Shown: positions 5,366 through 55,681 of the stretch, piece by piece
How positions within the stretch are numbered: position 1 is the stretch's first letter
How the letters are laid out: every line of letters starts with the position of its first letter
Notes under the pieces: generated by a model
Told to the model about the DNA's origin: nothing
What the model saw: only the letters and a program-made list of their open reading frames with translations
The model's database searches: none
Assembly (NCBI GenBank): GCA_022843585.1
Contig: JALHNJ010000014.1
Location: 1-64,000, forward strand
DNA: 64,000 nt
Direction of reading: 5' to 3'
Source: Chitinophagaceae bacterium
GTDB lineage: Bacteria > Bacteroidota > Bacteroidia > Chitinophagales > Chitinophagaceae
Position numbers and translations under genes: made by a program

Positions 5366-5385
5366 CCTGCCTACCGGCAGGCAGG
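5366..5385. repeat. Short palindromic intergenic repeat cctgcctaccggcaggcagg
   Basis: Near-perfect palindrome read directly. Confidence 0.5.
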
Positions 5386-6995: not shown

Positions 6996-7066
6996 ATACC
7001 TATGAAATTACAAAGGAATAAATGTAAAAAAGTAAACAGGTGGAAGCAATCGAAGTGCAAATGGAT

Positions 7067-7474
7067 CTAGAAACTACGATGTTCCTGAACCCATGCTGTA
7101 ATATACTCACTGATTTCAGAAGTTGGAGTGCCGGGAGCAAATAATTTTCCAACTCCCATTTCATTCAGGGTTTTCATGTCGTCTTCGGGAATGATGCCAC
7201 CCCCTGTTAACAGCACATCATCCATTTTCTTCTCTTTCATCAACGCAATTACTTTGGGAAAAATGGTATTGTGTGCACCGGAGAGAATGCTGATGCCGAT
7301 AGCATCCACATCTTCCTGCAAAGCAGCATTGACTACCATTTCAGGAGTTTGGCGAAGACCGGTATAGATCACCTCCATACCTGCATCTCTTAATGCGGTG
7401 GCAATAACTTTGGCGCCACGGTCATGACCGTCTAATCCTACTTTGGCAACTAATACTCGTACAGGTCTTTTCAT
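7067..7474 (-). CDS. Cobalamin (B12)-binding domain protein (methylmalonyl-CoA mutase C-terminal-like)
   Basis: '[31 protein letters not shown]' (DxHxxG B12-binding motif). Confidence 0.9.
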
Positions 7475-7517
7475 GCTGCAAATGTGTATTGCGAAAATAA
7501 GGAATGTGGCGGTATGC

Positions 7518-9085: not shown

Positions 9086-10615
9086 TTAAAAAGCTAATAA
9101 TGCTTTCTTAATTCTCGTAACAGTTTCTTCTTTACCCAATAACTCCGCAATATTAAACACAGGCGGTCCAAATTTTCCACCCACCAGCATGATGCGGAAA
9201 GGAAGTTGTAATTCACCCGGCTTGATATTTTTTTCAGTCGCCAATTCTTTAAAACTATTTTCTAAAGCAATTGCATTCCATTCTGTAGCATTCTGTAGTT
9301 TTTCAGTATAAGCGACAAAGAAATTTTTCTTATCCTCATTCCATTTCGGTTTCACTGCCTCCACATCCAATGTTTCTGGTGTTTTGAAAAAGAAAGAGGA
9401 ATGCTGAACAAAATCCGGCAATAAAGTGCAACGGTCTTTTACCAGCTCAATTACTTTTTCCAGCAATACATCATCAGCAACAGTAACGCCACTTTGCTCT
9501 AGCAGGGCTTTGACTCCCGACTCTAAACTCCCGACTCCCGACTTCTTTATCCATTCATGATTGAACCACTTTGCTTTTTCATAATCAAACTTTGCTCCGG
9601 CACTATGCACTCTTTCCATAGAAAACTTCTCTATTAATTCTTCCATCGAAAAAATTTCCTGTTCGCCACCATCATTCCATCCAAGCAATGCCAGCAGGTT
9701 AAGAAATGCTTCAGGCAAAAATCCTTTTTCTTTAAATCCTTCTGTTAGCTCACCCGTTTTTGGATCATTCCAGTTCATTGCAAATACGGGGAAGCCATAT
9801 TTGGCACCATCTCTTTTGCTCAACTTTCCATTAGGGCCAAGTATCAATGGGAAGTGAGCCCACTGTGGCATATTCTCCAATCCAAATAAATATTTCCAGA
9901 GTAAAATATGTACCGGTGCAGATGGCAACCATTCTTCACCTCTAAAGGCATGGCTGATTTCCATCAACTGATCATCCACTACAACGGCGAGATGATAGGT
10001 TGGCATTCCATCAGCTTTCAGCAACACTTTATCATCAACCAACGAAGTTTCGAATTTTACTTCGCCACGTATCATATCTGTAAAACTCACCGTTTCAAGC
10101 TCCGGCATTTTAATACGGATCACATGTCTGGTTCCTTCAGCTAATAGTTTTTGTGTTTCATCAGCAGATAAAGTCAACGAGTTCCGCATTTTCATACGGA
10201 TAGTATGGTCGTATTGTGGCGAAGGATTATGTTCCGTTTTGAAATCATGCCGCATTTTTTCCAAATCTTCCGGTGTATCAAATGCATAATAGGCATGTCC
10301 ATCTTTTACCAATTGCTCTGCATAATGCCGATAGCTTTCTTTTCTTTCACTCTGGCGATAGGGGCCATAGTTGCCACCATGCTGCACACTTTCATCCGGT
10401 TCCAGTCCGCACCATTTCAAGGTGTCAAAAATATATTCTTCGGCACCGGCTACATAGCGGCTTTGGTCGGTGTCTTCGATCCGAACTAAAAAATCACCGC
10501 CATGTTTTTTTGCAAATAAATAATTGTATAAAACCGTTCGTACACCACCCAGGTGCAAGCCACCGGTAGGACTTGGTGCAAAACGAACTCTCACTTTTTT
10601 ACTCATAGGCTGCAA
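9086..10615 (-). CDS. gltX: Glutamate--tRNA ligase
   Basis: 'RFAPSPTGGLHLGGVRTVLYNYLFAKKHGG' and 'LSKRDGA' (HIGH/KMSKS equivalents). Confidence 0.95.
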   Translation of the reverse strand: MQPMSKKVRVRFAPSPTGGLHLGGVRTVLYNYLFAKKHGGDFLVRIEDTDQSRYVAGAEEYIFDTLKWCGLEPDESVQHGGNYGPYRQSERKESYRHYAEQLVKDGHAYYAFDTPEDLEKMRHDFKTEHNPSPQYDHTIRMKMRNSLTLSADETQKLLAEGTRHVIRIKMPELETVSFTDMIRGEVKFETSLVDDKVLLKADGMPTYHLAVVVDDQLMEISHAFRGEEWLPSAPVHILLWKYLFGLENMPQWAHFPLILGPNGKLSKRDGAKYGFPVFAMNWNDPKTGELTEGFKEKGFLPEAFLNLLALLGWNDGGEQEIFSMEELIEKFSMERVHSAGAKFDYEKAKWFNHEWIKKSGVGSLESGVKALLEQSGVTVADDVLLEKVIELVKDRCTLLPDFVQHSSFFFKTPETLDVEAVKPKWNEDKKNFFVAYTEKLQNATEWNAIALENSFKELATEKNIKPGELQLPFRIMLVGGKFGPPVFNIAELLGKEETVTRIKKALLAF

Positions 10616-10722
10616 AGATAGAGAGGTTTAAGGTTTATGGTTTGTAGTTTGAAGTTTGTTGTTATTTCAGATCGTCTGTAAAAGCAATAAGAAACAAAAA
10701 ACTCAAAATTGTATCTTGCCTT

Positions 10723-11355
10723 ATGAATTATTTTGTAAAAACTCCCTGGTGGTTGAAGAAGTTGTATCCGCAGCGGCTATGGAGTGTTGATACAAAAGAA
10801 AAAATCATTTATCTCACCTTTGATGACGGGCCACATCCAATTGCTACTCCTTTTGTACTCGATGAGTTAAAGAAACATAACGCAAAAGCTACTTTTTTTT
10901 GCATCGGTAAAAATGTGGTTGATCATCCCGTTATTTATAAAAAAATTTTGGAAGAAGGGCATGTAGCAGGCAATCATACCCAACATCACCTGAACGGATG
11001 GAAAACAACCAAGGATGATTACCTGGCCAATATTGCGGAAGCTTCAACGCATATTAAGTCCAATCTCTTCAGACCACCTTATGGACGAATTCGTTCATCG
11101 CAAGCCAGGCAAGTAAATGTTGTTTTGAAAGATAATTCCTCAAAAATTGTAATGTGGGATGTATTAAGTGGAGACTTTGATGAGGAGTTAACTAACGAAA
11201 GCTGTCTTAAAAATGTAATTGGAAATGCAGGTGCAGGTTCAATTATTGTATTTCACGATAGTGAGAAAGCTTTTGCAAAATTGCAATTTGTTTTGCCGGA
11301 GGTGCTTCAATTTTTTACCGAAAAAGGCTTTGTTTTTCGGTCTTTACAGCCTTAA
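10723..11355 (+). CDS. Polysaccharide deacetylase (NodB homology) family protein
   Basis: 'YLTFDDGPHPIATPFVLDEL', 'HTQHH', 'FRPPYGRI'. Confidence 0.9.
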   Translation: MNYFVKTPWWLKKLYPQRLWSVDTKEKIIYLTFDDGPHPIATPFVLDELKKHNAKATFFCIGKNVVDHPVIYKKILEEGHVAGNHTQHHLNGWKTTKDDYLANIAEASTHIKSNLFRPPYGRIRSSQARQVNVVLKDNSSKIVMWDVLSGDFDEELTNESCLKNVIGNAGAGSIIVFHDSEKAFAKLQFVLPEVLQFFTEKGFVFRSLQP

Positions 11356-11383
11356 AAAAATCGGTTCGGGTATAAAAAAGTTA

Positions 11384-11412
11384 GGGCCTGGGTAGAAACC
11401 CTGGCCCGTTTT
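11384..11412 (+). terminator. Intrinsic (possibly bidirectional) terminator
   Basis: gggcc-t-gggt agaa accc-t-ggccc followed by gttttt, between convergent genes. Confidence 0.7.
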
Positions 11413-11460
11413 TAATCCGTACCCTATGAAAACTGGTTTAAAGGTATAATAATTTTTTAA

Positions 11461-12357
11461 TTACCGCAAAGTAATTTGTCTGGAAACTCCGTTTATTGTT
11501 ACCACGGCAAGATTGTCGCAAGTGCCGTTTCCGAAGTCCAAAACTGCCACCCACGGGCCATTGGTATTCGTATTGCGGCGAACAGTACGTATTTTCCCTC
11601 TTACTATCCAGCGGCAATTAAACCTTTTAAACAGGGGTTCAATAATATTTGACTCCCAGGCTGCTATCAATCTGCCCCTTTGCACACGGCCATTTGCAGA
11701 ACCCTCAATTTTAAATACATCATCAAGCGGAACAAATGGAGTGGAAAGGCCTTCCAGTTGGGTTATCACTTTATGGTTATTCCATTCTATAAAATTGCCA
11801 CTTGGCTTTGTTAGTTTGGCGTTTGTAACGTCAACCGTAAACTGGCGGGTAGTATTTGAAGAGCTGGTATTTTCAATTTTATGGGTGCCTTCCACTTTAA
11901 TGGTGTCAACATAAAAGCCATCAAATGTGGTAGTTGCTATAGAACCCGGATTCAATAATCTACCGGTATAAACAGTAATAATTTTACCTCTTCTGTAATG
12001 ACCATCAAGTCCTCTGCATGGAGTTGGACCAAAGTCAATAACCACTTTTACAGGGAATAGATCAGGAGGATTTAGCCTTGTAACAGTAACTGTATAACAG
12101 GGGTTAGGGTTTACACGATCAAGGCTACCAACACCTTCCATTCCCACTTCATCATTTACTCCCATTGTTTCATCAAACACTTCGTTGAAAACAATTTCTG
12201 CCTCCGCATCCGCTTCGCTGGTAAGAACAGATGCTTCCTGTTGCTCTAATTCTTCAGCACTATCGAGGCTATTTTCTTTTTGGCAGGACACTACTAATAA
12301 CAGAGAGGAAAAAAGGATTACAGTGAGAAGTTGATTAAAACGGAAACAGGGTTTCAT
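11461..12357 (-). CDS. Hypothetical lipoprotein
   Basis: Lipobox-like 'LLLVVSCQKENS' after signal sequence. Confidence 0.65.
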   Translation of the reverse strand: MKPCFRFNQLLTVILFSSLLLVVSCQKENSLDSAEELEQQEASVLTSEADAEAEIVFNEVFDETMGVNDEVGMEGVGSLDRVNPNPCYTVTVTRLNPPDLFPVKVVIDFGPTPCRGLDGHYRRGKIITVYTGRLLNPGSIATTTFDGFYVDTIKVEGTHKIENTSSSNTTRQFTVDVTNAKLTKPSGNFIEWNNHKVITQLEGLSTPFVPLDDVFKIEGSANGRVQRGRLIAAWESNIIEPLFKRFNCRWIVRGKIRTVRRNTNTNGPWVAVLDFGNGTCDNLAVVTINGVSRQITLR

Positions 12358-12465
12358 AAACGCAGTTTTAGAAATTTAATTAATTAACGGCTATAGGATG
12401 GTGTTTATTGATGAAAGTTTAAAGGTTTCTTAAATTTTTTTACAGAGTTTTGCAGTTGAAAAGCA

Positions 12466-13239
12466 TTGAAAATGACGCTGATAGACACCCATTCGCATAT
12501 TTACCTGCCCGAATTTGAGCCGGAATTGGCAGAAATGCTGAAAAGAGCCGAAAAAGAGGGAGTTGGTAAAATATTAATGCCGGCGATAGATTCTTCTACT
12601 CATCAGCAGATGTTAGATCTGGAGCAAAGCCGGCCGGATCAATGTTTGAGTATGATGGGGCTGCATCCTTGCTATGTAAAAGAAAACTTTAAGGAGGAGC
12701 TTGCCATTGCCAGGGCTTATTTGGAAAAGCAACATTTTAAAGCAGTAGGAGAGATCGGTCTGGATTTTTACTGGGATAAAACTTTTACCGAACAACAATA
12801 TGCTGCATTCAAAGAGCAAATTGGGTGGGCTTTGGAGTATACTATTCCAATCGTTATTCACTCCAGGGAGTCTACGGATGAGTGTATTGAAGTGGTAACT
12901 GCCCATCAAAAAGGACAACTTACCGGAGTGTTTCATTGTTTTTCCGGCGATGCAGTGCAAGCACAAAAAATTATTGACCTTGGTTTTTATCTTGGAATAG
13001 GTGGAGTTGTGACATTTAAAAATTCAGGACTTGATAAAGTGATGGAGTCGGTAGGTTTAGAAAATGTAGTATTAGAAACGGATGCGCCTTATTTAGCACC
13101 AGTGCCTTTCCGGGGTAAAAGAAATGAACCATCGTATTTAAAATATGTGGTGGAAAAATTAAGTACTCTTAAGAATATATCTACAGAGGAAGTAGCAAAA
13201 ATAACAACTGTGAATGCGGAGAAATTATTTGGGTTATAA
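12466..13239 (+). CDS. TatD family hydrolase
   Basis: 'LIDTHSHIYLPEF', 'AVGEIGLDFYWD', 'VIHSRES', 'FHCFSGD', 'LETDAPYLAP'. Confidence 0.93.
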   Translation: MKMTLIDTHSHIYLPEFEPELAEMLKRAEKEGVGKILMPAIDSSTHQQMLDLEQSRPDQCLSMMGLHPCYVKENFKEELAIARAYLEKQHFKAVGEIGLDFYWDKTFTEQQYAAFKEQIGWALEYTIPIVIHSRESTDECIEVVTAHQKGQLTGVFHCFSGDAVQAQKIIDLGFYLGIGGVVTFKNSGLDKVMESVGLENVVLETDAPYLAPVPFRGKRNEPSYLKYVVEKLSTLKNISTEEVAKITTVNAEKLFGL

Positions 13240-13278: not shown

Positions 13279-13300
13279 GCGGAGACGAAGGGATATGAAC
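13279..13300 (-). other. Left attachment-site remnant (decayed copy of tRNA-Ser 3' end)
   Basis: gcggagacgaagggat (13279-13294) identical to 55594-55609 at the 3' end of tRNA-Ser(GGA). Confidence 0.7.
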
Positions 13301-20762: not shown

Positions 20763-21857
20763 CTAAACTTCGATTGACGATTCGTTCTCTGGGATGAATT
20801 CTATAGAATAACCAGATTCTTCAGGTGCATAATCTTTCAATAGTTTTTTGGTTGATGCGGTTTGATTCGTTAATACTAAGTGAATGGGCCTTTCCGTTAA
20901 TTGTGCGGACTCAACTATCCAACTTAGTGTTGCGTAATCCGGATTTCCATTTTTACCATTTGCAGAAATCACATAGGTGTCAGCAGTGATATTTTCAAAA
21001 AAATCACGATTCGTATTCCTGTCACTTCCATGATGCGCCACCTTCAATACATCCACATGCATTCTACCGTTCTTCAACAACCCTTTTTTCTTAAGCCCCT
21101 CTATCAGATGATCGCCTCTTCCATCTCCGGTAAATAAAATAGTCCGACCAATACTTTTTACCAGAAATGCAATACTACTCAGGTTAGGAACACTTTTATC
21201 TGACATGGATAACAAGTTGAAATTGCCTGCAGCCATATCATTTTCCCTTTCTGTTAGCCATTCGTCCCACTTTATTTTTAATTCATCCAGGTTCTCTTTT
21301 GTTGGTCCGACAATTGTGAATTCCAGATTATCCATATTGAATGAAGCGTTCGGTGAACCCACCCGCATTATTCCTTGTGTCGCCGGACTGTTCATGGGAA
21401 TATTCAAAACATTACATAGTGTAGTCACCTTGTTCCCTTCTTTAATGCCATTGAGTGCAATAGCCGTAGAGGCCATTTGTATACCATTGCCGGCTGCCGT
21501 ACTGAAAATCGAATTGATCCTATTGGCCAGTGTATTATTTGTATCAATCGTGGCGCTGAATGTATTCATCCAGCAATCCTTTATTCCTATAAACAATTCC
21601 TCATTGTTATCCTTCTGCGCTTTTAATTCTGCCAGTAGATCAAGAATTCCCTTGATGTGATCGATATCAACGTGTGTAATAATAGCTGCTTCTAATTCGC
21701 CTGAACTAACAATATTTGTAAGGGTGTCCCGTAGTGAATTCTCATAGACGCCTGTTGGTCCCCCATCAATCAATATAAATTTAAGAGATGCTTCGCTGCC
21801 ATATTGTATGAGCATACAATCCCCGAATTCAGCCTGAATTACATGTAGTTTAAACAT
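20763..21857 (-). CDS. Metallo-beta-lactamase-fold protein (ComEC/Rec2-like)
   Basis: 'ILIDGG', 'ITHVDIDHIKGI', 'LFTGDG', 'VAHHGSDRN'. Confidence 0.88.
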   Translation of the reverse strand: MFKLHVIQAEFGDCMLIQYGSEASLKFILIDGGPTGVYENSLRDTLTNIVSSGELEAAIITHVDIDHIKGILDLLAELKAQKDNNEELFIGIKDCWMNTFSATIDTNNTLANRINSIFSTAAGNGIQMASTAIALNGIKEGNKVTTLCNVLNIPMNSPATQGIMRVGSPNASFNMDNLEFTIVGPTKENLDELKIKWDEWLTERENDMAAGNFNLLSMSDKSVPNLSSIAFLVKSIGRTILFTGDGRGDHLIEGLKKKGLLKNGRMHVDVLKVAHHGSDRNTNRDFFENITADTYVISANGKNGNPDYATLSWIVESAQLTERPIHLVLTNQTASTKKLLKDYAPEESGYSIEFIPENESSIEV

Positions 21858-21877
21858 AATTTTTATTTTTAGGTGGT

Positions 21878-24115
21878 TTAATTCGCGTTGATATCGCCGG
21901 ACGTTATAACGTAAGCAAAATCCTGATAGCCCTTAATAATATTCGTGGCCGTTATCAGTAAGGTATACTCTCCTGCTTTTGCATTTTCAATATTGATGAC
22001 CTCTACATTGTTTGTTGTGTCGGGCATTTTCAATAAGGATGGTACATTTTCATTCCCGATCCATTTTGTATTATCCAGGTTATAAGCCAACATGAGGTTC
22101 AGATTATTTTGCAAAGCTCTTCCCGGAATATCTGTGTAGACTAAACATATTCTTAACCATGTATTGACCGTTAACTTAAATTGGATTTTTGCAGCTTGGC
22201 CTGTAAAACGAAAATGTTTAGTGGGGTCTTTATAATTGTCTTCAAATCGTAAAAAAAAATTGTTGGCTGGGCCCGGGATTGTTTGAACCATATCCACCAT
22301 TCCGAAGCCCTGATTATAATTAGGTAAGTCTGGAAATTTCACAATGCAATCAACCCCGGTAAGTTTTTTACATCCATTGATGATAGTAGCTTTTACGAGT
22401 GCTGCACTTGCCCCATGATTTTTCGCTTTCTGATAATACTCTCTGACTACTGCAGCACATCCTGCAACCAATGGAGCTGCCATACTTGTTCCCCCCATGA
22501 TAGCATATTTGTTATTACCCGGCAGTATTCCCCAATAGCTGGATAATGAGGCTTCGGATGATTTTACCGATGCTATATCTGTACCCGGAGCAACCACGTC
22601 GGGTTTAATCCTGTTATCGTCACATGGTCCCCTGCTACTGAATCCTGCAAGTGCATTACTATCTCCGGATACCTTATCTGTACTTAACGGCGGGTTTGGA
22701 AAATGACTGGGCCAAATATCCCCGTAATTATAAGAACAATATCCTCCTTCAGTCCGCAAACTTCGGCTGGCGCCCACAGTCAGGATGTTTTTCGCAGAGC
22801 CCGGTGAACCTATGGACAAGAAATCAGGGAACCCCGCGGGAGCGTTAATGGGATTGAATGCGTTCCCTTCGTTGCCAGCGGAAAACACGAGCAGCATATC
22901 ACGATTGGCAGCAACAAAATCATCAACCTCAATAGCATTAATTGTATATCGGGAACTGGTAGCAGAACCCCAGCTATTATTATGTACCCTGACTCCATTG
23001 TCATACGCTTCCTGGAAAAGCATTTGTAGTTGCAAAGGGAGATTTAATTCGCCGCTACTATTCATAATAGATTGAAAAAATACTTTTGCCCCCGGAGCAG
23101 TACCTTTAATTTTTCCATCTGATGAAGCACCGTTTCCTACAATAGAACCAGCGACATGACTACCATGACCATCGAAGTCTGAAAAGTCATTTTCTCTTCC
23201 CCAAGCAGTTGGTGTTTTATGCACCTGGTTTTCAAAATCCGGATGTGAAATATCAATCCCTGTGTCTGCCACCCCCACTACTTGGCCATCGCCATCAAAC
23301 TCTAGGTTGGGTTGTCCATTAGATATAGCATCCATACCCATAATGCCTCTGGCCACATCATTATGTAATTTGGGTGGAATGTATTGGTCAAATGATTGCA
23401 CGGCTGTATGGGAAGCAATTTCCTGTCTATGCGCGGAGTCCTCTAACAGGTATACACGTATTTTCTTGCCGGCTACTCCTGCAATCGCAATTTCTTTTTC
23501 TAATAACCAGGCTATTACCCCGTCCATATCTTCTTTCCTGTGCAGTAAAATATCAAAGGGAACAATTTGTTTCTCGATCATTGTGCCGTGCGCCGGAATA
23601 GTGTTCTTAATTATATTAATTCCCGTATCCTTTGAACTATAGTAAGTGATATTTTTTGCAAATAGTAAGCCGACTAAGGTGAGAAACTCATCTTCCGATC
23701 CTAATCTCACCAAATAAGAATCAGGTGGTATAAATTCAAGAATGGTAATATTTGCGGCATGTAACTGCTCTCGGTATTCCTCTAATAAAGGGCCTGCAAT
23801 AGAGAATTTATAATAAGCCGGGAATCCCGCCTTTTCCTGTTCATCTCTTAGTAAAATAATATCGGGATGGTGGATATTGGTAAATCCTCTTACGCGGTCA
23901 ATTCTTTTCAGCCGGTGCATTTCCCGTTTTTCTTCTAAAATTCCGGACTGTATTTCCTGGGTAATTATTTTTTCCTCCAATAATTTTTTATACTGTCCCT
24001 CGTCTACTTCCCCTATAAAATAGCTCTCTGTTTTTTGTGGATTAATCATGGAAGCTTTTATTAAAGCTTCTTCCTTCTCATGCATAAAGTATGCAATAAT
24101 TTTGCGAACAGGCAT
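21878..24115 (-). CDS. S8 family subtilisin-like serine protease
   Basis: Catalytic motifs 'VADTGIDISHPDF', 'DGHGSHVAGSI', 'GGTSMAAPLVAG'. Confidence 0.93.
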   Translation of the reverse strand: MPVRKIIAYFMHEKEEALIKASMINPQKTESYFIGEVDEGQYKKLLEEKIITQEIQSGILEEKREMHRLKRIDRVRGFTNIHHPDIILLRDEQEKAGFPAYYKFSIAGPLLEEYREQLHAANITILEFIPPDSYLVRLGSEDEFLTLVGLLFAKNITYYSSKDTGINIIKNTIPAHGTMIEKQIVPFDILLHRKEDMDGVIAWLLEKEIAIAGVAGKKIRVYLLEDSAHRQEIASHTAVQSFDQYIPPKLHNDVARGIMGMDAISNGQPNLEFDGDGQVVGVADTGIDISHPDFENQVHKTPTAWGRENDFSDFDGHGSHVAGSIVGNGASSDGKIKGTAPGAKVFFQSIMNSSGELNLPLQLQMLFQEAYDNGVRVHNNSWGSATSSRYTINAIEVDDFVAANRDMLLVFSAGNEGNAFNPINAPAGFPDFLSIGSPGSAKNILTVGASRSLRTEGGYCSYNYGDIWPSHFPNPPLSTDKVSGDSNALAGFSSRGPCDDNRIKPDVVAPGTDIASVKSSEASLSSYWGILPGNNKYAIMGGTSMAAPLVAGCAAVVREYYQKAKNHGASAALVKATIINGCKKLTGVDCIVKFPDLPNYNQGFGMVDMVQTIPGPANNFFLRFEDNYKDPTKHFRFTGQAAKIQFKLTVNTWLRICLVYTDIPGRALQNNLNLMLAYNLDNTKWIGNENVPSLLKMPDTTNNVEVINIENAKAGEYTLLITATNIIKGYQDFAYVITSGDINAN

Positions 24116-24231
24116 AATGTTTTGGTTGAATTTTCCTAAGAATCAAGTAAATTTCTTGTAATTAAGATAGGGTGTTTTTTGATTTTAAGCCAGATAATGC
24201 ATTATAAATTAATTATTTTTAAATGTAATTG

Positions 24232-24266
24232 ATTGTCAACAAATTAAGAGTAGAAAATTTGACAAT
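24232..24266. promoter_or_regulatory. Imperfect palindrome in divergent intergenic region, candidate operator
   Basis: attgtca(aca)aatt ... aatttgacaat, 47 nt upstream of the sigma-factor ATG. Confidence 0.4.
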
Positions 24267-24312
24267 TCTTAACTTGTTACCTGTTTGCCTATATATAATA
24301 GAGACAATTAGT

Positions 24313-24918
24313 ATGAATTATACAGAACTGATAGAATTGATAAAAAAGAAAGACAAGAAAGGTCTTGAATATTTGTTTACCGATTATGGAGAGAAACTAT
24401 ATTCTTATGCAATATACCAATGGTTTTTATCGGAAGACAAGGCATGGGATGTTGTGTATAAAACGCTCGATACCCTATTATTGAAACTGCCAGGTTATAA
24501 ATTAGAGAGTTCGCGGCACTTCAATAATTTAATCTTTAAAATCTTTAAAAATAACCTGCGCCAAAGCTACCGGGATAGCCGGAGAAGTGAAGAAAAACTG
24601 GAGTTTGTAGCTCTGGATGATTTTGCCGCTGATTCGGTTAATCAGGCGGAGGAAGACTTCGCTATTGAACCTACCGTATTTACGGATTATTATAAAAATG
24701 AAGTGCTTGAAAGCCCCCTGTTTGCAGCATTGAAACTTTCATTAGAAAAATTAGAACCACGTGAAAAGGATCTGCTCTTACTGAAGGCCCAGAATTATTC
24801 TTATGATGAAATTGCTTCCATGCTAAAAACGGATGCCGGCCCTTTAAAAATGAGGCATTCCCGTGCTTTGCGAAAACTGAGAGAATATATCAATAAACAA
24901 CAAAAAGGAGTTTTATGA
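24313..24918 (+). CDS. RNA polymerase sigma-70-like factor
   Basis: ECF-like architecture; C-terminal 'LSLEKLEPREKDLLLLKAQNYSYDEIASMLKTDAGPLKMRHSRALRKLREYI' (sigma region 4-like). ORF opens at 24229 but Met at 24313 is a likelier start. Confidence 0.75.
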   Translation: MNYTELIELIKKKDKKGLEYLFTDYGEKLYSYAIYQWFLSEDKAWDVVYKTLDTLLLKLPGYKLESSRHFNNLIFKIFKNNLRQSYRDSRRSEEKLEFVALDDFAADSVNQAEEDFAIEPTVFTDYYKNEVLESPLFAALKLSLEKLEPREKDLLLLKAQNYSYDEIASMLKTDAGPLKMRHSRALRKLREYINKQQKGVL

Positions 24919-25490
24919 GTAATATAAAAAAAATAGACCCGATCCAGGAAGCACTTGTTATTACCTGGTTAGAAGATATGACTGCATCTGAGAACGATGG
25001 GCTTTTCCTATCGTTGCCTACAGCTCATTCCATAAACATTCCTGCCGATAAAAAACAATTGATGGTAGATCGTCTTTATGAAAGAATGGCGGTTCTTTCT
25101 TTTGGGGAATTATTAATTCAATCAATTTCCAGCAACCATTTATCTATGGAAGATATATCTACCACCACTTCATTGAAAAAATCAATTATTGAAGAATTGC
25201 AAACCGATAAAATTGCTGTGAATAATATTCCTGTATTTATTCTTAAAAAGTTATTGGACCAGTTAAAACTTTCTGTTGCAGATGTGAAGTCAGCGATTTT
25301 GAAAAGTTTTCAAATTATAAAAAATAATTCCATTGAAAACGAAGAGCACTTCTCGATAAGTCCTGCTTTCAGAAAGGGCGTTACGGAAGGCAGCGGCAAC
25401 TTGGTTAAGCGATTACCTAATAAAGATCTCTTCGAAAATGAAGAGTCTTTGCATAAGTATCTTGATAAATTAGATGAATTGATGAAATAA
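24915..25490 (+). CDS. Hypothetical sigma-associated partner (helical/HTH-like)
   Basis: Overlaps sigma gene by 4 nt; 'LSFGELLIQSISSNHLSMEDISTTTSLKKSIIEELQTDKI' resembles an HTH-like repeat. Confidence 0.6.
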   Translation: MSNIKKIDPIQEALVITWLEDMTASENDGLFLSLPTAHSINIPADKKQLMVDRLYERMAVLSFGELLIQSISSNHLSMEDISTTTSLKKSIIEELQTDKIAVNNIPVFILKKLLDQLKLSVADVKSAILKSFQIIKNNSIENEEHFSISPAFRKGVTEGSGNLVKRLPNKDLFENEESLHKYLDKLDELMK

Positions 25491-26527
25491 TGGGAGAGAC
25501 TACATGGTCATATACAAAGGGCAGTACACTCCGGCAATGTAATAGGAAATTCTTCTTCGCCTATAGACTGCAAAGTTGGGGAAGGAAAGATCTTCTTCGT
25601 CGGAAAGCTTATGAATTAGGGCATATGAAAAACCTGGATATGTGGGTTGGATCTGTAGTTGACAAAATAATGAATGAAAAAATAATTCCTTCTATCGTAG
25701 CAAAGGAAGTATTGGACTTCCCCGCATTAGCGGATTATGCCATTTCAATTGCTCAAAAACAATTCAATTATTCATCCAATAAAATTTACCGGTTGCCTAA
25801 AAATAAACAGGCAACGATAACGGAAGAAGATAACGAACCTTGTATCCTTGATATACATGAAACGAGCAAGGAGTATAATCCTGAGGATATAGCGCAATCT
25901 TATGAAAAAATAAGAACTGCGATTCTATCTATCCCTGACATTTTTATGCCAGACGGAAAAACAACCTTGCTCAATTATTTATATGCTTCTTATCCTTTGC
26001 TACCCGATTTGAAGGCATGGTCTTTTTATGTAGAGGCAGTCAGAGTAAATCCCCAAATAGACTTAGTGGGATATCATGCGTTTAAGCCATTTGTTATTGA
26101 CTGGAAGGTTTCAGAAAGCCTATCATCCGATTATTCAAAGCAATTACTGGTTTGCGGTTTGGCAGTTTATTATAAAAGACTGGAAAAAGAAAGGAAGGAG
26201 GGGAAAGCACCTTACGAGTTTAACGATATACGGCTTTTCAAAGTGAACCTTTTAAAGAAAGAAGTCACTGAGTATGCCATGGATCCCGATAAGATAAATG
26301 AGATTATTGATAGTATTAATTTGTCGGGAAGGGATATAAAACTACTTGAGGCAATGACAGAACCAGATGTTGCAGAAATGCCATCCATCGCAGCAACAGA
26401 AAATGAAGCAAATTGCCTTTTTTGTAATTATAAAACTTTGTGTACTTATCTCTATTTAAATAATCATGAATACGATGAAAAAAATTACTTACAATCAATA
26501 CAAATTGCTGAACCTGCGGGAGCATGA
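25490..26527 (+). CDS. Cas4/RecB-like PD-(D/E)XK nuclease with C-terminal Cys cluster
   Basis: 'YTKGSTLRQCNRKFFFAYRL', 'IDLVGYHAFKPFVIDWKVS', 'KQLLVCGLAVYY', 'CLFCNYKTLC'. Confidence 0.78.
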   Translation: MGETTWSYTKGSTLRQCNRKFFFAYRLQSWGRKDLLRRKAYELGHMKNLDMWVGSVVDKIMNEKIIPSIVAKEVLDFPALADYAISIAQKQFNYSSNKIYRLPKNKQATITEEDNEPCILDIHETSKEYNPEDIAQSYEKIRTAILSIPDIFMPDGKTTLLNYLYASYPLLPDLKAWSFYVEAVRVNPQIDLVGYHAFKPFVIDWKVSESLSSDYSKQLLVCGLAVYYKRLEKERKEGKAPYEFNDIRLFKVNLLKKEVTEYAMDPDKINEIIDSINLSGRDIKLLEAMTEPDVAEMPSIAATENEANCLFCNYKTLCTYLYLNNHEYDEKNYLQSIQIAEPAGA

Positions 26528-28859
26528 TTTCTCTTATAAATTGGTTGAAATCGATCTACCCCTTATTAAAGGGCAGGAGAAAATGAACAGGCAAAATATA
26601 GAGAAAGTAATGTTCAAAATTGCCGCTCATATTAAAGGGCCTGTTGCTTCAATTATCCGCAATGGGAAAATTATGTTAGCTATACCATCCAACAGGATCT
26701 TAAACATCAGTAAAGTACAGGCCATTCCCTTTGAAGTGAATGTTAAACTTCTTCCGGAAGTTTTTCACTTGCAAGGAAAAGATATTAATAAAGAAAATCA
26801 GGAAATTCCTTTGAAATTTCTTACTGCGGCTATTAAAAGGCAATTGAAGGCGCACTATGATTTTTTTGAATTAAATAACAGCAACCAGTTTTATGTAAAA
26901 CAACCGGTATTCAGTGATGACTCTTCTGGCATAGATATTTATGAAGGGTTTTTCTTACGGATACGTCAGTTTGATGACGGAAATTTTTACCTCGTTTTGA
27001 ACCCCACTTTTAAGTACGTCGCCAGTGAATACCTGTCAGCCATCATTTCAATACAGAACCAGCATTACATGGCCGATCGACTAACAGGTAAACATTGTCT
27101 TTATCAAAACGGTGACGACTGGTATATCATTGAAGTAGTAGGATTTTTGCGATCAATCGGTGAAGACAGATACGATGGCGAAACCATAATTAATTACATC
27201 AAAACAAGGACAGCAAATCACTACAATAAGGTTGAAGGACTACTCCGTCCAAATGATCTTACTTTATTATATAAGTACCCCAAAAGAGCTATGCAGCCGC
27301 ATCATGGAGCTAGTTCACTGGCAAAAATTGTTTACCATACAAAGGATTTAGATAACACGGCCTTGCATAAATATTCTATTCAACCAGTTGAAGAAAGATT
27401 TGAACGTATTTCGCAGGCGGTTGCCCAGTTTTTACAAAGTTTTTCTTTAAACAAAAAACCATTACAAGTCAGTACTATCCCCTTTGAAGAAGAACAGGAT
27501 TATTTTCCCTTACCGGAACTTCTTTACAATAACGGGAAAATATTATCTGTCAGTAACAGCTATCATGATAACCCCAAAATTGCCGTGCGTGACTACGCTA
27601 AGGCAAGAAAAAACCATATTATAGATTGCCAGATTTTAAAGCAAACAAGTTTTGATGCACAATATTTAATTTACCCGGAAAGCTTGGATAAACGATATAT
27701 TACTGCGATTCAAACTTATTTTGAAAATTACATGAAAAAGCTGGCCCCTAAATTCCAAGGGTTCCAACTCATACCTTATCAGATCAAACCCAATCAAGCC
27801 GCCACTTTCCAGGTAGAAGAAATTCAGCGGACACTATTGCGTAAACGTATAGGAAGCGGTTTCGCATTATTCCTGTTTGACGATATGAGTGGCCAGCATA
27901 AAAGTAAAATCAAAACCTTTCATGATTGCTTGAAGAAAAAATTTTTCCCCAACCTCAAATTCCAATGTGCGTCTTCGAAAAATATCAGCCGATATTTTGA
28001 AACTGTTTCCGATAATAAAGAAGGTCTTAATTATAAACCAGCACCAAAATATATCGACCGTTTTAAATCTTACTTATTTTACCTGGTCATGGAATATTTA
28101 AAGATTAATAATAAATGGCCTTATGCGCTGAAAAATAATTTTCATCATGATATCTGGATTGGTGTGGATGTACAGGACAGGTATGTTGGAATTACTTTTC
28201 TTTTTAAGAACGGGGAAAATATAATTTTTAAATACAAAGAAATTCCAAGAAAAACAGGAAGGATGCGGGATGAAAAAATTGATTCGGCAACGATTATATC
28301 CATACTAACAGAGAACTTAGAAAGCCAAATACCTCGTTTTGCACCTAATCCTAACAGTATTGCCATATTGCGTGATGGAAGGGTGTTCGATGATGAAATA
28401 AAAGCTTTTGAGACAGTTATCTCACTTTTACAGAGTAAAGAACTGGTCAGGACAGATAACTTTCATTGGGGGGTAATTGAGTTGCATAAAAAATCTGCAC
28501 TACCGCTCAGAGCAGCCTGTAAAGTTTCAGGATTTGCCGGACTTGAGAACCCGCAAGCTGGTACTTTCAGAATAATCGGGGACAAAGAGGGTTATTTATT
28601 TAATACTGGCTATCCCTTTAAAATTTCAGGAACTGTTAATCCCCTTTGTCTTTATAATGCATATGGTAACCTCAACTTTACAAAAGCAATGCAGGATGTT
28701 TTTGATCAATGTATGCTGGCGTTTTCTGCACCAGATAAAAGCAATAACCTGCCAATTATCATTAAGCTGATTGATTCTTTTCTATCACCGCTTGCTGATT
28801 ATATAGATACAGGTGAAGAAGAAACAAGTGAAGTCTACGATGATGAAACTATGAATTAG
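26466..28859 (+). CDS. Long prokaryotic Argonaute-like protein (MID-PIWI) with D-E-D-D catalytic tetrad
   Basis: PIWI motifs 'IWIGVDVQDRYVGITF' (D568), 'MRDEKID' (E603), 'IAILRDGRVFDDE' (D637), 'PIIIKLIDSFLSPLADY' (D770); MID-like 'GFALFLFDDMSGQHKSKIKTFHDCLKKKFFPNLKFQCASSKNI'. Confidence 0.82.
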   Translation: MNTMKKITYNQYKLLNLREHDFSYKLVEIDLPLIKGQEKMNRQNIEKVMFKIAAHIKGPVASIIRNGKIMLAIPSNRILNISKVQAIPFEVNVKLLPEVFHLQGKDINKENQEIPLKFLTAAIKRQLKAHYDFFELNNSNQFYVKQPVFSDDSSGIDIYEGFFLRIRQFDDGNFYLVLNPTFKYVASEYLSAIISIQNQHYMADRLTGKHCLYQNGDDWYIIEVVGFLRSIGEDRYDGETIINYIKTRTANHYNKVEGLLRPNDLTLLYKYPKRAMQPHHGASSLAKIVYHTKDLDNTALHKYSIQPVEERFERISQAVAQFLQSFSLNKKPLQVSTIPFEEEQDYFPLPELLYNNGKILSVSNSYHDNPKIAVRDYAKARKNHIIDCQILKQTSFDAQYLIYPESLDKRYITAIQTYFENYMKKLAPKFQGFQLIPYQIKPNQAATFQVEEIQRTLLRKRIGSGFALFLFDDMSGQHKSKIKTFHDCLKKKFFPNLKFQCASSKNISRYFETVSDNKEGLNYKPAPKYIDRFKSYLFYLVMEYLKINNKWPYALKNNFHHDIWIGVDVQDRYVGITFLFKNGENIIFKYKEIPRKTGRMRDEKIDSATIISILTENLESQIPRFAPNPNSIAILRDGRVFDDEIKAFETVISLLQSKELVRTDNFHWGVIELHKKSALPLRAACKVSGFAGLENPQAGTFRIIGDKEGYLFNTGYPFKISGTVNPLCLYNAYGNLNFTKAMQDVFDQCMLAFSAPDKSNNLPIIIKLIDSFLSPLADYIDTGEEETSEVYDDETMN

Positions 28860-28880
28860 TTTACTTTAAAAATAAAATTT

Positions 28881-29321
28881 ATGAGCGATCTAAGTGTCCT
28901 CTCCAATCAATATGAAACCTTGGTTGATACATCTGATAAAATCAATAATTCAATTATAGCTTTCAAAAAGGAATATCTTAAAAAGAATAATACCGATGCG
29001 AAATACCAGGCATTGATGTTGTCAGAAGAAGAAAAACTTCAGGCCACTAACTATTTGAGCCATTTTTTACAGGATTTATTCCAGTTGCTGGAAAATACTT
29101 CCAATCAATCTACCGATATACCCAGTATGGTGGCGGGCGATTATATTGAAAAACTTCAAATCAATATTCCTACCGTAAAAAAAGATGTCAGTGAAATACA
29201 GCAACTAATCAACAAACAAGAGACATTAAGTACCGACCAACTAAGTACATTAGACAGGATACTAATGACTTTGGACGGCGAGCGAAAAGTATTATTCAGA
29301 AAACTTAGAAGTTCCCGTTAA
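28881..29321 (+). CDS. Small helical/coiled-coil hypothetical protein in pAgo operon
   Basis: 21 nt after pAgo gene; 1-nt overlap with next gene; helix-rich composition. Confidence 0.6.
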   Translation: MSDLSVLSNQYETLVDTSDKINNSIIAFKKEYLKKNNTDAKYQALMLSEEEKLQATNYLSHFLQDLFQLLENTSNQSTDIPSMVAGDYIEKLQINIPTVKKDVSEIQQLINKQETLSTDQLSTLDRILMTLDGERKVLFRKLRSSR

Positions 29322-30448
29322 TGGTAGCATTTGTCAAAGGCATATTCCATGATTTATCAGGTAGGATTCAAAAAATGATTGTGAACCTGGAGCAGTTGAA
29401 AGAAACTACTGCTATTCCAAAAGATTTTTTTGATAAAACCCTTTCCCTGTTAAATAAACTCAACCAGGAAGTAAATACAACCCTTGTTTCGCCAGATATT
29501 TCATTTGATGAACTGGCTGGCAACAATATTTTAAAATTCAACACCCTTTATGAGCGTTTCCTAGCCATTGAACTTTACCGGTTCCAGGTTATTATTCATT
29601 ACGGTGAAAATGAAAAATATTTCAATGCATTGATTAACCGAATTTATCGAGAGATTGAATGTAACCAACGTCCCCCTATTGTATCTGTTATCAGCAATAA
29701 CGATAATTATTATTGGGTATACCCTTTGTATGAAATCATTGCCGTGCCCTATGGCGAGGAAAGAAACTTGTTAAATCTACCTGACCTCTATCACGAGATC
29801 GGTCACCTGATTTATGGACAGTTCCCAACGTTTTTGAAAGGCACCATTGAGAGTAGTTTAGACAAACATTTCAGGGACGAGATACAGGCTATACACGATG
29901 AGAACAGGGACAAGAAAACAATCCCCGTTTTAAAAGAAGCTTTTGACTCTTGGAAAAATTCATGGATTGAAGAATTTATCTGTGATTTAATTGCAACCTA
30001 TCTAACCGGCCCTTGCTATGGCTGGACTAATTTAAAAATATCAACTATCAGTAGTACAGATAAAGGCATATATAGCACAACCGCTAATCATCCTTCGGAC
30101 GAATCTCGTATGTATGCCATTTTCAGCATGCTTCAATTAATGGGGCATCAGTCCGATATTGAGCAATTGAAGAATTACTGGGCATCTTTTATGGCTATTT
30201 CTGCTAATGCTAAAAGTCAATTTTATGATACTTTGCTTCCGCAACATATAATATCGGAGCTAGTTGCAACGGTTTTTCAAAGTTGCCAGGATATTGGATT
30301 ATCTAGTTACAGTAAGCAGATAGAAATTTCAGGAGAGCCCATAGCACAATTGCTTAACCAGGCGTGGACAGAAAATCTTGCCCGACCTGAAAATTTTACC
30401 AATTGGGAAAATTCACAAACTGAAAAACTTATACAGGAATTAAATTGA
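29321..30448 (+). CDS. HEXXH zinc metallopeptidase-like protein
   Basis: 'LPDLYHEIGHLIYGQFP' plus downstream 'SWIEEFICDLIATYLTGPCYGW...HPSDESRMYAI' gluzincin-like context. Confidence 0.75.
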   Translation: MVAFVKGIFHDLSGRIQKMIVNLEQLKETTAIPKDFFDKTLSLLNKLNQEVNTTLVSPDISFDELAGNNILKFNTLYERFLAIELYRFQVIIHYGENEKYFNALINRIYREIECNQRPPIVSVISNNDNYYWVYPLYEIIAVPYGEERNLLNLPDLYHEIGHLIYGQFPTFLKGTIESSLDKHFRDEIQAIHDENRDKKTIPVLKEAFDSWKNSWIEEFICDLIATYLTGPCYGWTNLKISTISSTDKGIYSTTANHPSDESRMYAIFSMLQLMGHQSDIEQLKNYWASFMAISANAKSQFYDTLLPQHIISELVATVFQSCQDIGLSSYSKQIEISGEPIAQLLNQAWTENLARPENFTNWENSQTEKLIQELN

Positions 30449-32209
30449 AATGGGAAGATGTGAATTTCCCTTTTCGACTAACTTCTCTATCAATTGATCA
30501 AAAGGCGTGTTGTTTTCACCTTTCTTTAATGCATTTAGTATTAACCACCGCATTCGAAAAACAATACGGGGCAATGATGTGATCATCTTTTGTTTTGCTG
30601 CCTCATTTTCAAAACCACTATGCAGGAGAAAGTTTCGGTATTCATATGCTTCCACGAGAATTCCATAATAATATTCCTTTGATTTTATATAGTAGGCTTG
30701 ATCAAGTGTTTGATGATATTCGTTTACTAAGTCACGTAAGAAGGGATATGTTACCGCCTTGATTTCTTTAGCAACCTTGCCTTTACGCATAGCCCTCATA
30801 ATATTTCTATAGCGCTCTTGTGGAACATTTAGAAGGTCGTATCCATTAGAGAAAAAGGAAAAGTTGTTAGATAACGTTGTCAGGATTCTCTGATCTCGAT
30901 TGAATTTTTCGTTTTCCAAAATGATTGACGAAACGAGTCCCATTACTTGTTTCTCACTGCGATTAAAAGAAAGCAATGTCTCAATGTATGTCCAGTAGTC
31001 GGCTACTGATTTATTTTTCTGGGCTTGAATAAAAATCGATTCACACTTAAGAAACCAGTCAACCGAAATCCCTGAGGTCTTGCGTAGAATATGGAATGCA
31101 TTGTCATTTAATTCTTTGAGTGTTATTTGGTGTGTGCTGTTTTCAAATGTTTTAGTACTCCACGCAGTTCCAAAGTAGCGGTGAGCATTAGTAAGGCGTA
31201 TATAGTTGCCGGAAGTGTCAACACTAAAGTCCCTGTCATAAGAGGCGGATATAAATGGTAGTTCCTTTCGTATTTTCTTTATCAGATTTGGTAACAAAGA
31301 GTATTCAGAGTACCACTGAATCTTTACGCTGGCAATAAAATAATCGCCGTCAACAAAAAAACTTTTGTCATCATCCTGATTCATACACAATCTAATCTTC
31401 TTTATTCGGTTATGATCCTTCCCGTAAAAACTAACCTGGTCATATTTGAATTCAAAGTTTTCAGGAAAATTTCCTCCATAAACCTTGACCATGATAATTC
31501 CGCTTTGTTCTACTGGCGTGAAGGCATTGGTGAACCCATTAAGTTGATTTTGTAATGTTTTTTCTGCCAAATATTTTTCTCGTAGTCGTTTCGTAGTAGC
31601 ATTGGCGGGGAAAGGAAATGAATGTATATCCTTACTAAAGACCCGTGAGATGATATCTTTCACTTCCCCTTTGGAGTATCCTCGGAACAAATATTCAGCA
31701 ACCAGTAAAATCGCCGCAGTGATAAAAAAATCCGCATGTGTGGTTGTAGAGTTAGGCACAAACTCATCAAGTTTATGAGAGCATAGTACATTACCAATAA
31801 CTCCAGTCATTAATTCCCGCGGCATTCCCGCAACTAGATCTTGATGGAGAATATGCAAGTCATTTTGAAACGCAGTACTCATGAGAATGCGTTTTTTTTC
31901 TTCATTTTTCGATTTGCCTAATTGATTATAGTTGGCAACAATACCTTTTACCCGTAGATAAGTTGGAAAGGCATTCCAGAATGTGTCAGCAGTAAAAAAT
32001 GACTGTTTAAAGTAATTATCAAAGTACGGTAACCGGTAAACTTTATCATTTTGAAAACGAAATAATATCTTTTCCAATAAAGAAGTAGGGCTTTCGAGTT
32101 CTAAATGATATTCCCGACCTGCATAGTCCGCAGCATGAGTAATACGATCTAAAAAATAGTTTACTTTTTCTTCAATTAATGGATTTTGATTGGTGATTCG
32201 TTTGACCAT
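30440..32209 (-). CDS. Hypothetical protein of a two-gene nuclease module
   Basis: 589 aa ORF, convergent with the pAgo operon (9-nt overlap), 45 nt downstream of the nuclease-like gene. Confidence 0.6.
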   Translation of the reverse strand: MVKRITNQNPLIEEKVNYFLDRITHAADYAGREYHLELESPTSLLEKILFRFQNDKVYRLPYFDNYFKQSFFTADTFWNAFPTYLRVKGIVANYNQLGKSKNEEKKRILMSTAFQNDLHILHQDLVAGMPRELMTGVIGNVLCSHKLDEFVPNSTTTHADFFITAAILLVAEYLFRGYSKGEVKDIISRVFSKDIHSFPFPANATTKRLREKYLAEKTLQNQLNGFTNAFTPVEQSGIIMVKVYGGNFPENFEFKYDQVSFYGKDHNRIKKIRLCMNQDDDKSFFVDGDYFIASVKIQWYSEYSLLPNLIKKIRKELPFISASYDRDFSVDTSGNYIRLTNAHRYFGTAWSTKTFENSTHQITLKELNDNAFHILRKTSGISVDWFLKCESIFIQAQKNKSVADYWTYIETLLSFNRSEKQVMGLVSSIILENEKFNRDQRILTTLSNNFSFFSNGYDLLNVPQERYRNIMRAMRKGKVAKEIKAVTYPFLRDLVNEYHQTLDQAYYIKSKEYYYGILVEAYEYRNFLLHSGFENEAAKQKMITSLPRIVFRMRWLILNALKKGENNTPFDQLIEKLVEKGNSHLPISI

Positions 32210-32254
32210 GTAATTAATTTCTACTTTATTTTTACAAGCGGGAAGTTTGTTTGA

Positions 32255-33484
32255 TTAATAGATGGAGAATATAAAATGGAAGATGGATTTCTTTCTTATG
32301 AAACTATGTTCGGATTTGAAGTATGTATATCCCGAAGGTTCAACTACAATTTCAGACCAACTGCCGGTAATATAATTCATTTCTTCTGCGATAATTAATT
32401 GTTTATAATCCTCCTCGATGCCTGTTTTCTTGTTATTGATCATAAAAACATAGCCTTCTTGCTCAAAGTCTGTTAGATAGCTTCTGAGTTGATTAATGAT
32501 GTTCTTCTTATCGTTGTTCCACCATCCTTTGAACTCAATTATTTTATTAGCCATTGAGGGATGCGACACCTTTAAATCAATTCTACCGTTACCCTTTTCC
32601 GGCTCTGGTTCGGCACTATAGCCCGCCATAACAAATGCGGTTTGAAACCAGTAGCGGAATGCCGACTCGTCTTTTGTATCGCCTTCTTTCATTTTTTTGA
32701 TAAATTCAGCATTAACACCCTGGTTTTGGAGCAAGTGGATTGAGGTTGTAAAATCCTTGATAAAATCAAAGACTCTGGGTCTTAAGCTATTCTTCTCTTT
32801 TTCGATAACATCATTTGCAAGCTTCTTAATCGTTTCAATATAATGTTTTGCCAGTTTATCACCACTTAGATATTGCGGGTAATAATTATCATCAACCTGG
32901 AATGAAATTGCTTTATCCGCACCTGCAAATATAAACTCAATGATTGTTTTATTATTCCGTGTAGTGATTCGTGCATTTCTAAAATCTTTCAGATCATACC
33001 GTGTATTGATATTTGAGTTAACTAAAGCAGTTACCGTTTCTAAAGAGAATGTGCTAACATATAAACTTTCTCCTTCTACTTTGAAGGTCATTACCAAAAG
33101 CTGACGGTATGGTTCATGGTGCTTGTTTAGCTTAGTATCTCTCCGGATTTCTTCGACATCCAAATGCGAAAACGATTCCTTTCCGTCACAAATGTGGTTA
33201 ATCCCATATCCCCAAAAGCCCTTCCCGCAAAAATTGTATTGAGCATTTAGAGACTTAAATTTTTCTGCATTGTGATAAATGTAGGAAGCTATGTTTGGTG
33301 AGTAACCACCTGGTCCCCAGATGGCATCTGCATACCTGAATAATCTGTTCTGGATTATTGTGAAAAAGTAATCTTTATAAATATGAGGTTCAACATGCAT
33401 AAATGAAACCGACTTTTTTTTAACAACCTGATTTAGTTTAGTCAATGTCAAAGCTAAATCTTCTGTGTAAAAAATGGGAGGCAT
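32255..33484 (-). CDS. PD-(D/E)XK nuclease-like protein
   Basis: C-terminal 'GNGRIDLKVSHPSMANKIIEFKGWWNNDKKNIINQLRSYLTDFEQEGYVFMINN'. Confidence 0.65.
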   Translation of the reverse strand: MPPIFYTEDLALTLTKLNQVVKKKSVSFMHVEPHIYKDYFFTIIQNRLFRYADAIWGPGGYSPNIASYIYHNAEKFKSLNAQYNFCGKGFWGYGINHICDGKESFSHLDVEEIRRDTKLNKHHEPYRQLLVMTFKVEGESLYVSTFSLETVTALVNSNINTRYDLKDFRNARITTRNNKTIIEFIFAGADKAISFQVDDNYYPQYLSGDKLAKHYIETIKKLANDVIEKEKNSLRPRVFDFIKDFTTSIHLLQNQGVNAEFIKKMKEGDTKDESAFRYWFQTAFVMAGYSAEPEPEKGNGRIDLKVSHPSMANKIIEFKGWWNNDKKNIINQLRSYLTDFEQEGYVFMINNKKTGIEEDYKQLIIAEEMNYITGSWSEIVVEPSGYTYFKSEHSFIRKKSIFHFIFSIY

Positions 33485-35409: not shown

Positions 35410-35946
35410 GTGCCGCGTCCAACCGGAACACAAGACCCTTTATTTCTTACCTCCTTCCAACAAGGAGATGAGGTTGCTTTTGACTGCCTGTTCCGGGAAT
35501 ATTTTACTCCGTTAACCTATTTTGCCAGCCGTTATGTCGATGATCCGCAAGCCGCCGAAGATATTGTGCAGGATTGTTTTGTACTACTCTGGCAACGCAG
35601 AGATCGCCTTCAACAAATTTCTTTAATTAAAAGTTACCTCTATACTACTGTTCGCAATCAATGCCTGAAGCAACTAGAGAAAAATCGGCGGAAACAATTA
35701 AATTTCAATTCTCCAACAGAAGAACCCAGCTATGAAGAATTATTAATCGCTGCTGAAACTGCTAACCAATTATACAAATTGATTGATACTCTTTCCCCGG
35801 CCTTGCAAAAAATCATCCGGCTTTATTACCTGGAAGGGAAGTCCAACCACGAGATCGCAAAGCAACTCCACATTGAGCCAGATACGGTGATCCGGCAACG
35901 ACTGAGGGCCATACTTGCACTTAGGAAAACTAAAATTTCACTTTGA
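35410..35946 (+). CDS. ECF-type RNA polymerase sigma factor
   Basis: 'DEVAFDCLFREYFTPLTYFASRYVDDPQAAEDIVQDCFVLLWQRRDRL...LYYLEGKSNHEIAKQLHIEPDTVIRQRLRAI'. Confidence 0.88.
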   Translation: MPRPTGTQDPLFLTSFQQGDEVAFDCLFREYFTPLTYFASRYVDDPQAAEDIVQDCFVLLWQRRDRLQQISLIKSYLYTTVRNQCLKQLEKNRRKQLNFNSPTEEPSYEELLIAAETANQLYKLIDTLSPALQKIIRLYYLEGKSNHEIAKQLHIEPDTVIRQRLRAILALRKTKISL

Positions 35947-55479: not shown

Positions 55480-55594
55480 ACAACTAGGGTAATAAAGAGG
55501 GGTAAAGGCAGGTATAGACCAAAAGTGAAAAACCTGCAAATCATTGATTATGCAGGTTTTATTACTTAGACTTATTTTAATTTATGGTACTCAG

Positions 55595-55681
55595 CGGAGA
55601 CGAAGGGATTCGAACCCTTGATACAGTTTCCCGTATACACACTTTCCAGGCGTGCTCCTTCAACCACTCGGACACGTCTCC
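55595..55681 (-). tRNA. tRNA-Ser(GGA)
   Basis: Reverse complement GGAGACGTGTCCGAGTGGTTGAAGGAGCACGCCTGGAAAGTGTGTATACGGGAAACTGTATCAAGGGTTCGAATCCCTTCGTCTCCG; 7-bp acceptor stem, long variable arm, GGTTCGAATC T-loop. Confidence 0.93.

Follow-up and report, generated by a model that had tools for sequence, protein, structure and literature searches.

According to the accessible text of Lisitskaya et al (PMC9360449), the D-R prokaryotic Argonautes (pAgos) of the PnyAgo and PliAgo groups use a DNA guide to cleave an RNA target, and their operons combine a Cas4-related nuclease with either a helix-turn-helix (HTH) or a sigma70 gene. The association of sigma70, a PD-(D/E)XK nuclease, and a pAgo was published there in 2022 as the PnyAgo group. 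The same text gives Runella slithyformis as the source of RslAgo and treats it as an open question what such Argonautes, guided by DNA and cutting RNA, do in nature. Another group of proteins relevant to this work is that of the HEXXH peptidases PprI/IrrE and CapP, which are activated by single-stranded DNA (ssDNA) and cleave DdrO and CapH (PMC10904395, PMC13373217).

Here, we analyzed a window of 64,000 nucleotides from a Chitinophagaceae bacterium, for which a preliminary description had reported six co-directional, overlapping genes facing a divergent pair of MBL-fold and S8 protease genes. All eight ORFs were found at the coordinates given there, and the stop/start contacts within the six-gene run (24915/24918, 25490/25490, 26466/26527, and 29321/29321) were confirmed, the last of them being the point at which the genes of the helical protein (HEL) and the HEXXH peptidase touch. 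The S8 and MBL genes lie on the opposite strand, with 20 nt between them, and are separated from the sigma-led operon by about 200 bp. The earlier domain calls (MBL, S8, sigma, Cas4-like, pAgo, and HEXXH) also held, on the basis of family models and of an HEXXH motif that is invariant in 30 sequences. We retained the previously proposed start of the sigma gene at 24313 because the listed TTG at 24229 would swallow a conserved upstream element. The features of the locus are the following:

13279..13300, no strand: left attachment-site repeat of the island, 22 nt repeated directly at the tRNA-Ser 3′ end.
20763..21857, minus strand: MBL, MBL-fold protein (ComEC/Avs1a/LmuA-like) and partner of S8, matching the PADLOC models LmuA, RTasMBL, and Avs1a (E 7e-61 to 5e-37).
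21878..24115, minus strand: S8, subtilase of a neighboring and very probably independent module (Pfam Peptidase_S8 3e-57).
24275..24293, plus strand: cis-element TGTTACCTGTTTGCCTATA, consensus TGTAACCtnnntGCATwATA, from aligned upstream sites (weight-matrix score 20.4).
24313..24918, plus strand: SIG, ECF-type sigma-70 factor (TIGR02937 E 2.6e-14; Sigma70_r4_2 9.7e-08).
24915..25490, plus strand: PART, predicted XRE-like HTH regulator extended by additional segments at both termini (AF2 and Foldseek).
25490..26527, plus strand: CAS4, PD-(D/E)XK Cas4-like nuclease (PADLOC 'Aga_Cas4-like_Nuc' 7e-45; in 29/29 loci).
26466..28859, plus strand: AGO, long pAgo of the PnyAgo/D-R group (PADLOC pAgo_II 2e-251).
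28881..29321, plus strand: HEL, helical protein of 146 aa (between AGO and HEXXH in 27/29 relative loci).
29321..30448, plus strand: HEXXH, zincin-type metallopeptidase (invariant residues in 30 sequences; in 29/29 loci).
55594..55615, no strand: right attachment-site repeat, the 3′ end of tRNA-Ser 55594–55681.

Sequence features support the earlier proposal that these genes sit in an island integrated at tRNA-Ser. The two repeat copies (13279–13300 and 55594–55615) are direct, 22 nt long and 91% identical, one of them is the 3′ end of the tRNA gene, and the ORF beside the latter (54118–55344) is integrase-like in appearance. The end of this integrase-like gene and the attachment region are partly duplicated (50688–51261 versus 54118–55617; 91% and 86%), which suggests tandem or nested insertion events. 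Convergent with the operon, two genes on the minus strand (30440–33484) encode an unknown 589-aa protein and a protein of 409 aa whose C-terminus weakly resembles PD-(D/E)XK; they may form a further two-gene module. A second sigma-70-like factor is encoded in the island (35410–35946, plus strand) and is, by position, unrelated to the pAgo operon.

Using the pAgo as query, we found eight other carriers among 299 genomes of the same family. The same five genes were present in the same order in 8/8 of these relatives, with pAgo identities down to 23%; in the two most distant ones, the two small genes were paired by position and size only. A one-genome-per-species scan raised the total to 29 distinct relative loci, mainly from Bacteroidota. 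The HTH slot, the nuclease, the pAgo, and the peptidase were each found in 29/29 of these loci and the helical gene in 27/29, the counts for the eight loci on which the profiles were trained not being independent and those for the other 21 being so. The sigma gene was present in 18/29, every one within one pAgo clade, and outside this clade an XRE regulator takes its place. Such gene order is far beyond chance, both in the family (8/8) and for the four core genes in the wider set (29/29). Searched against the same 299 genomes, the peptidase profile recovered all nine pAgo genomes plus one more (G036). A search of 72,556 plasmids retrieved exactly five with the pAgo, and these five were also the only ones with the peptidase (from Spirosoma, Emticicia, Runella, a cyanobacterium, and a Rhizobium). 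Four of these plasmid loci were inspected, and in each the order is pAgo, a small gene, and the peptidase gene, which is labeled 'hypothetical'; the plasmid operon of Runella slithyformis, the source species of RslAgo, carries both HEL and HEXXH genes. No viral contigs with the peptidase were confirmed. The six right-hand genes are almost certainly one conserved unit, and its occurrence in defense-type neighborhoods and on plasmids is supported.

Several observations concern the surroundings of these cassettes. A PIF1/HTH_40 helicase is an optional neighbor in 18/29 loci, sometimes translationally coupled, and is absent from the window; at L137, its gene (10429–12582) overlaps the HEXXH end at 10432. 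At L138, a Septu-like PtuA/PtuB pair (9483–11595; PtuA PADLOC E 1e-121) lies directly downstream of the cassette and convergent with it, and pairs judged similar by resemblance only are present at L139 and L127. Finally, L141 encodes a protein of 468 aa that is distantly related to the HEXXH peptidase (6945–8351), with no cassette partner detected.

The DEDD tetrad of the window pAgo is intact (D562, E603, D637, and D770). Its comparison with PDB entries 9wmd/8xih, which are likely MbpAgo, gave 657 bits, and that with 7r8f, which we take to be PliAgo from its D563 position, gave 169 bits; by these bit scores, and with the identities assumed here, the PnyAgo/MbpAgo type is its nearer relative and PliAgo the more remote one. 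Residues H486, K490, and Q500 are found at plausible spacing, the last K not being assigned with certainty. In the pAgo tree, the sigma-type loci group together with a support of only 0.49, and the XRE-type loci lie apart from them; a pAgo of the latter type (L016) best matches 7r8f. As for the nuclease, C17, C309, C312, and C318 are invariant, as are D191 and D204-W-K206. Its gene lies directly upstream of the pAgo gene and a sigma70 gene is present in the operon, both being features of the PnyAgo group. By analogy with the described groups, the window pAgo is probably a DNA-guided, RNA-cutting Argonaute. The preliminary description had not recognized the gene set as a described system. This has to be corrected for sigma70, nuclease, and pAgo, which were described together in 2022 (PMC9360449), and it stands for HEL and HEXXH, as the accessible text of that paper names no peptidase, helical protein, PART, or cis-element. 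We found no later literature naming the peptidase/helical pair of the operon; subscription papers and preprints were mostly outside the search, and a prior description is possible. What was already known is the combination of sigma factor, nuclease, and pAgo, and the pair of helical protein and metallopeptidase is undescribed in the literature found. We conclude that the six genes make up a single operon of the D-R pAgo type, with invariant components that had so far gone unremarked.

The element TGTAACCtnnntGCAT lies ahead of the sigma gene in all tested loci of the sigma type, held-out loci included. Its distance to the gene start is about 27–64 bp (37 bp before ATG 24313 in the window); at L010, the first listed sigma start lies upstream of the element. 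A weight matrix built on 19 sites gave scores of 18.7–26.6 upstream of the sigma genes of four held-out loci (L127, L128, L138, and L139), and about four sites reached a score of 13 in a shuffled control of one strand of 778 kb. No comparable site was found before the regulator gene of the XRE-type loci, and in the window the sigma-linked element faces the sigma gene only, not S8. In four of seven genomes, the strict form of the element had no exact match genome-wide other than that at the operon; a further two genomes have one-mismatch sites at the operon, and the window's own site is more changed. Since one-mismatch sites exceeded the reversed control pattern just modestly in this regulon scan across genomes, only the operon site stands out. 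The element may serve as an auto-promoter or as an operator for the HTH protein; a −35 box at this place would put the transcription start of some loci at the start codon or beyond it. Extra copies of the element were also seen elsewhere. At L026, one lies about 96 bp ahead of a gene for a PIN_2-domain protein of 368 aa (6499–7701) just upstream of the sigma operon, and an element-like site is inside the sigma gene at 7897. At L128, a weaker copy (score 14.9) is directed toward a divergent operon of the multiubiquitin/ThiF/DUF6527 type (4430–6550), and an operon of this type also lies downstream of the Runella cassette (L124, 9235–11414).

The AF2 model of PART has a five-helix centre, and its central domain reaches a pLDDT of about 80. 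By Foldseek, the model matched XRE folds with a probability of 1.00 (the N-terminal domain of CapH with TMt 0.81, SinR, and DdrO), the best E value being only 0.025, and in the other clade its position is occupied by a canonical XRE protein. When profiles were compared, PART showed no significant relation to the XRE proteins of that clade, so that the likeness is by fold only. We take the predicted resemblance to CapH and DdrO as a lead for function, not as membership. The peptidase carries the motifs H158-E159-x-x-H162, E218-x-x-C221-D222, and H257-P258-x4-R263, and H158, E159, H162, E218, C221, D222, H257, P258, and R263 are invariant across the 30 sequences, the invariant Glu being the presumed third ligand beside HEXXH. 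Its AF2 model (pLDDT 92.8) is mostly helical and had no match in a PDB fold search, and Pfam gave no peptidase family matching consistently among the 30 members. Assignments to M78 (ImmA/IrrE; IrrE/CapP) or M48 were not significant by hhalign (11% and 13%), Pfam, or PDB folds; the order of the motifs (HEXXH, ExxCD, and SHPxxxxRM) recalls M48 and is the sole resemblance to this family. No convincing family was found for HEL.

The additional genome recovered with the peptidase (G036) carries at L128 the sigma and PART genes, followed by a gene for a 136-aa protein and then by HEL and HEXXH, without nuclease or pAgo. The 136-aa protein has GIY…YVG residues, and Pfam gave no confirmation of GIY-YIG. 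A rather unlikely extension of these data is that HTH(/sigma)-HEL-HEXXH forms a portable immune chassis of a new kind, in which an orphan zincin with a helical adaptor would sense invasion and switch the sigma/HTH regulator, and which would accept swappable nucleic acid-targeting cargos (Cas4-like nuclease plus D-R pAgo, or the GIY-YIG-like protein). In addition, the genome of the window itself has a second, very divergent XRE-Cas4-pAgo-HEL-HEXXH cassette (L129, 8509–13775; G000:C2, about 87008–92274), and a cassette similar to the latter was seen at L140 (5305–10500).

By analogy with CapP-CapH or IrrE-DdrO, we tentatively propose that the six genes form an inducible D-R pAgo immune operon in which the peptidase/helical pair switches the HTH/sigma regulator. 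The Cas4-like nuclease would process invading DNA into DNA guides, with which the pAgo, once loaded, would destroy the transcripts of the invader. HEL would hold or present the HEXXH peptidase, which would sense the invasion, most plausibly as single-stranded or guide DNA, and would cleave the XRE-like PART. This cleavage would release the co-encoded sigma factor, which would fire the operon from the TGTAACC/GCAT element, sometimes with a neighboring operon.

In favor of such regulation, the regulator, HEL, and the peptidase are retained where the GIY-YIG-like protein of L128 replaces nuclease and pAgo, the modeled XRE fold of PART matches, among others, CapH and DdrO, which are cleaved by HEXXH peptidases that ssDNA activates, and the sigma-linked element is found in all sigma loci tested. 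In contrast, the peptidase is not detectably related to M78 or M48 and has no PDB fold match, its gene is the last of the operon and away from the HTH gene, no profile links PART to the XRE proteins of the other clade, and the element could be an HTH operator instead of a sigma promoter. The main rival, possible although we doubt it, is that the peptidase is the effector and HEL its inhibitor or adaptor: a guide-loaded pAgo engaged with target RNA would activate HEXXH, essential host proteins would be cut and growth would stop (abortive infection), sigma and PART only setting expression. Together with the nuclease, peptidase and HEL are indeed the most invariant non-pAgo parts and lie directly downstream of the pAgo, L128 swaps the nucleic acid part and keeps HEL-HEXXH as expected for a common effector, and proteases serve as effectors in Avs1 and Lamassu-type systems. 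However, the regulator gene is almost always kept too (we saw none at L126), an observation at least as compatible with a switch, and a pAgo with an intact tetrad needs no separate effector to act. We also considered that the operon is a host gene regulation device and not immunity, sigma and PART controlling a small regulon and the pAgo tuning RNAs. The operon has its own sigma factor and a conserved element, and the accessible text of PMC9360449 leaves gene regulation open, but the exact element match found only at the operon in four genomes, a patchy spread (9/299 genomes) with plasmid and island sites, and a neighborhood with genes like Septu PtuAB and E1-like ones speak for defense and make this reading improbable. 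Switching of the regulator by the peptidase/helical pair is the mechanism that we prefer.

The preliminary description had gone further and read all eight genes as one pAgo-protease system, a version in which S8-MBL would be an effector arm. Both gene groups abut across about 200 bp here, and Avs1-type systems use both kinds of domain, MBL and protease, as effectors. Yet the tabulation of neighbors proposed in the same description, carried out on the 29 relative loci, retrieved HEXXH in 29/29 and sigma in 18/29, and gave MBL matches in 2/29 and S8 matches in 2/29 (weak) that were never paired, so that S8-MBL occurs in 0/29. At E 1e-60, no window-type S8 was found in the other 298 family genomes, though eight of them carry the pAgo operon, and in a phylum sample (395 others, 1e-50) it appeared in one genome, with no MBL beside it. 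On plasmids of Rhizobium, Methylorubrum, and Miltoncostaea, S8 lies directly upstream of an MBL homologue, and no pAgo is annotated in the displayed flanks of these pairs. The plasmid S8 genes match the window S8 weakly (E 4e-6 to 2e-9, single-sequence profile), so what is conserved is the arrangement of the pair and not a close orthology of its genes. Furthermore, no sigma-type element faces S8. Because S8 and MBL are never together in the relative pAgo loci and are paired alone on unrelated plasmids, the eight-gene 'pAgo-protease module' fails, and we consider it highly improbable. The multi-component unit claimed earlier is upheld for sigma, partner, nuclease, pAgo, helical protein, and HEXXH, which are conserved together, and loses S8 and MBL. 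The S8-MBL pair is very probably separate from the pAgo operon and shares the island with it; on plasmids, it is possibly a stand-alone defense module. These plasmid pairs (L049–L052) come from alphaproteobacteria and actinobacteria; the Methylorubrum one (L050) adjoins cyclase/E2/TIR genes and the Rhizobium one (L052) an ATP-binding/S8 pair. A reading of such neighborhoods must separate stacked modules, S8-MBL being in all likelihood a different system.

Among the known systems, Avs1 (AVAST type 1) and Lamassu with hydrolase/protease effectors resemble the neighboring S8-MBL pair in having MBL beside a protease. They differ from it in that neither a STAND ATPase nor an SMC-like sensor was found beside the window pair by ORF list and family search, the flanking genes being on the other strand. 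CapH-CapP and DdrO-IrrE(PprI) pair an XRE-fold DNA-binding protein with a co-encoded HEXXH peptidase in an immune operon, an arrangement to which the putative XRE-fold PART and the HEXXH peptidase of the window may correspond, whereas the window peptidase is not detectably M78-like, mostly helical and of unmatched fold, the HTH and peptidase genes are non-adjacent, and a sigma factor is added in the window clade. The PnyAgo group (PnyAgo and HpeAgo) shares with the window a long DEDD pAgo after a Cas4-related PD-(D/E)XK nuclease, with sigma70, whereas PART, HEL, HEXXH, and the cis-element are absent from the published text accessible to us. The invariant peptidase with its helical partner, the regulator, and the cis-element offer testable handles on how D-R pAgo systems are triggered. 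The PliAgo group (PliAgo and RslAgo) shares nuclease, pAgo, and an HTH regulator with the window and differs from it in lacking sigma, in having a short canonical XRE protein instead of PART, and in a pAgo that is about 22% identical. Since the Runella slithyformis operon also has the HEL and HEXXH genes, and this species is the source of the purified RslAgo, tests can start from known material.
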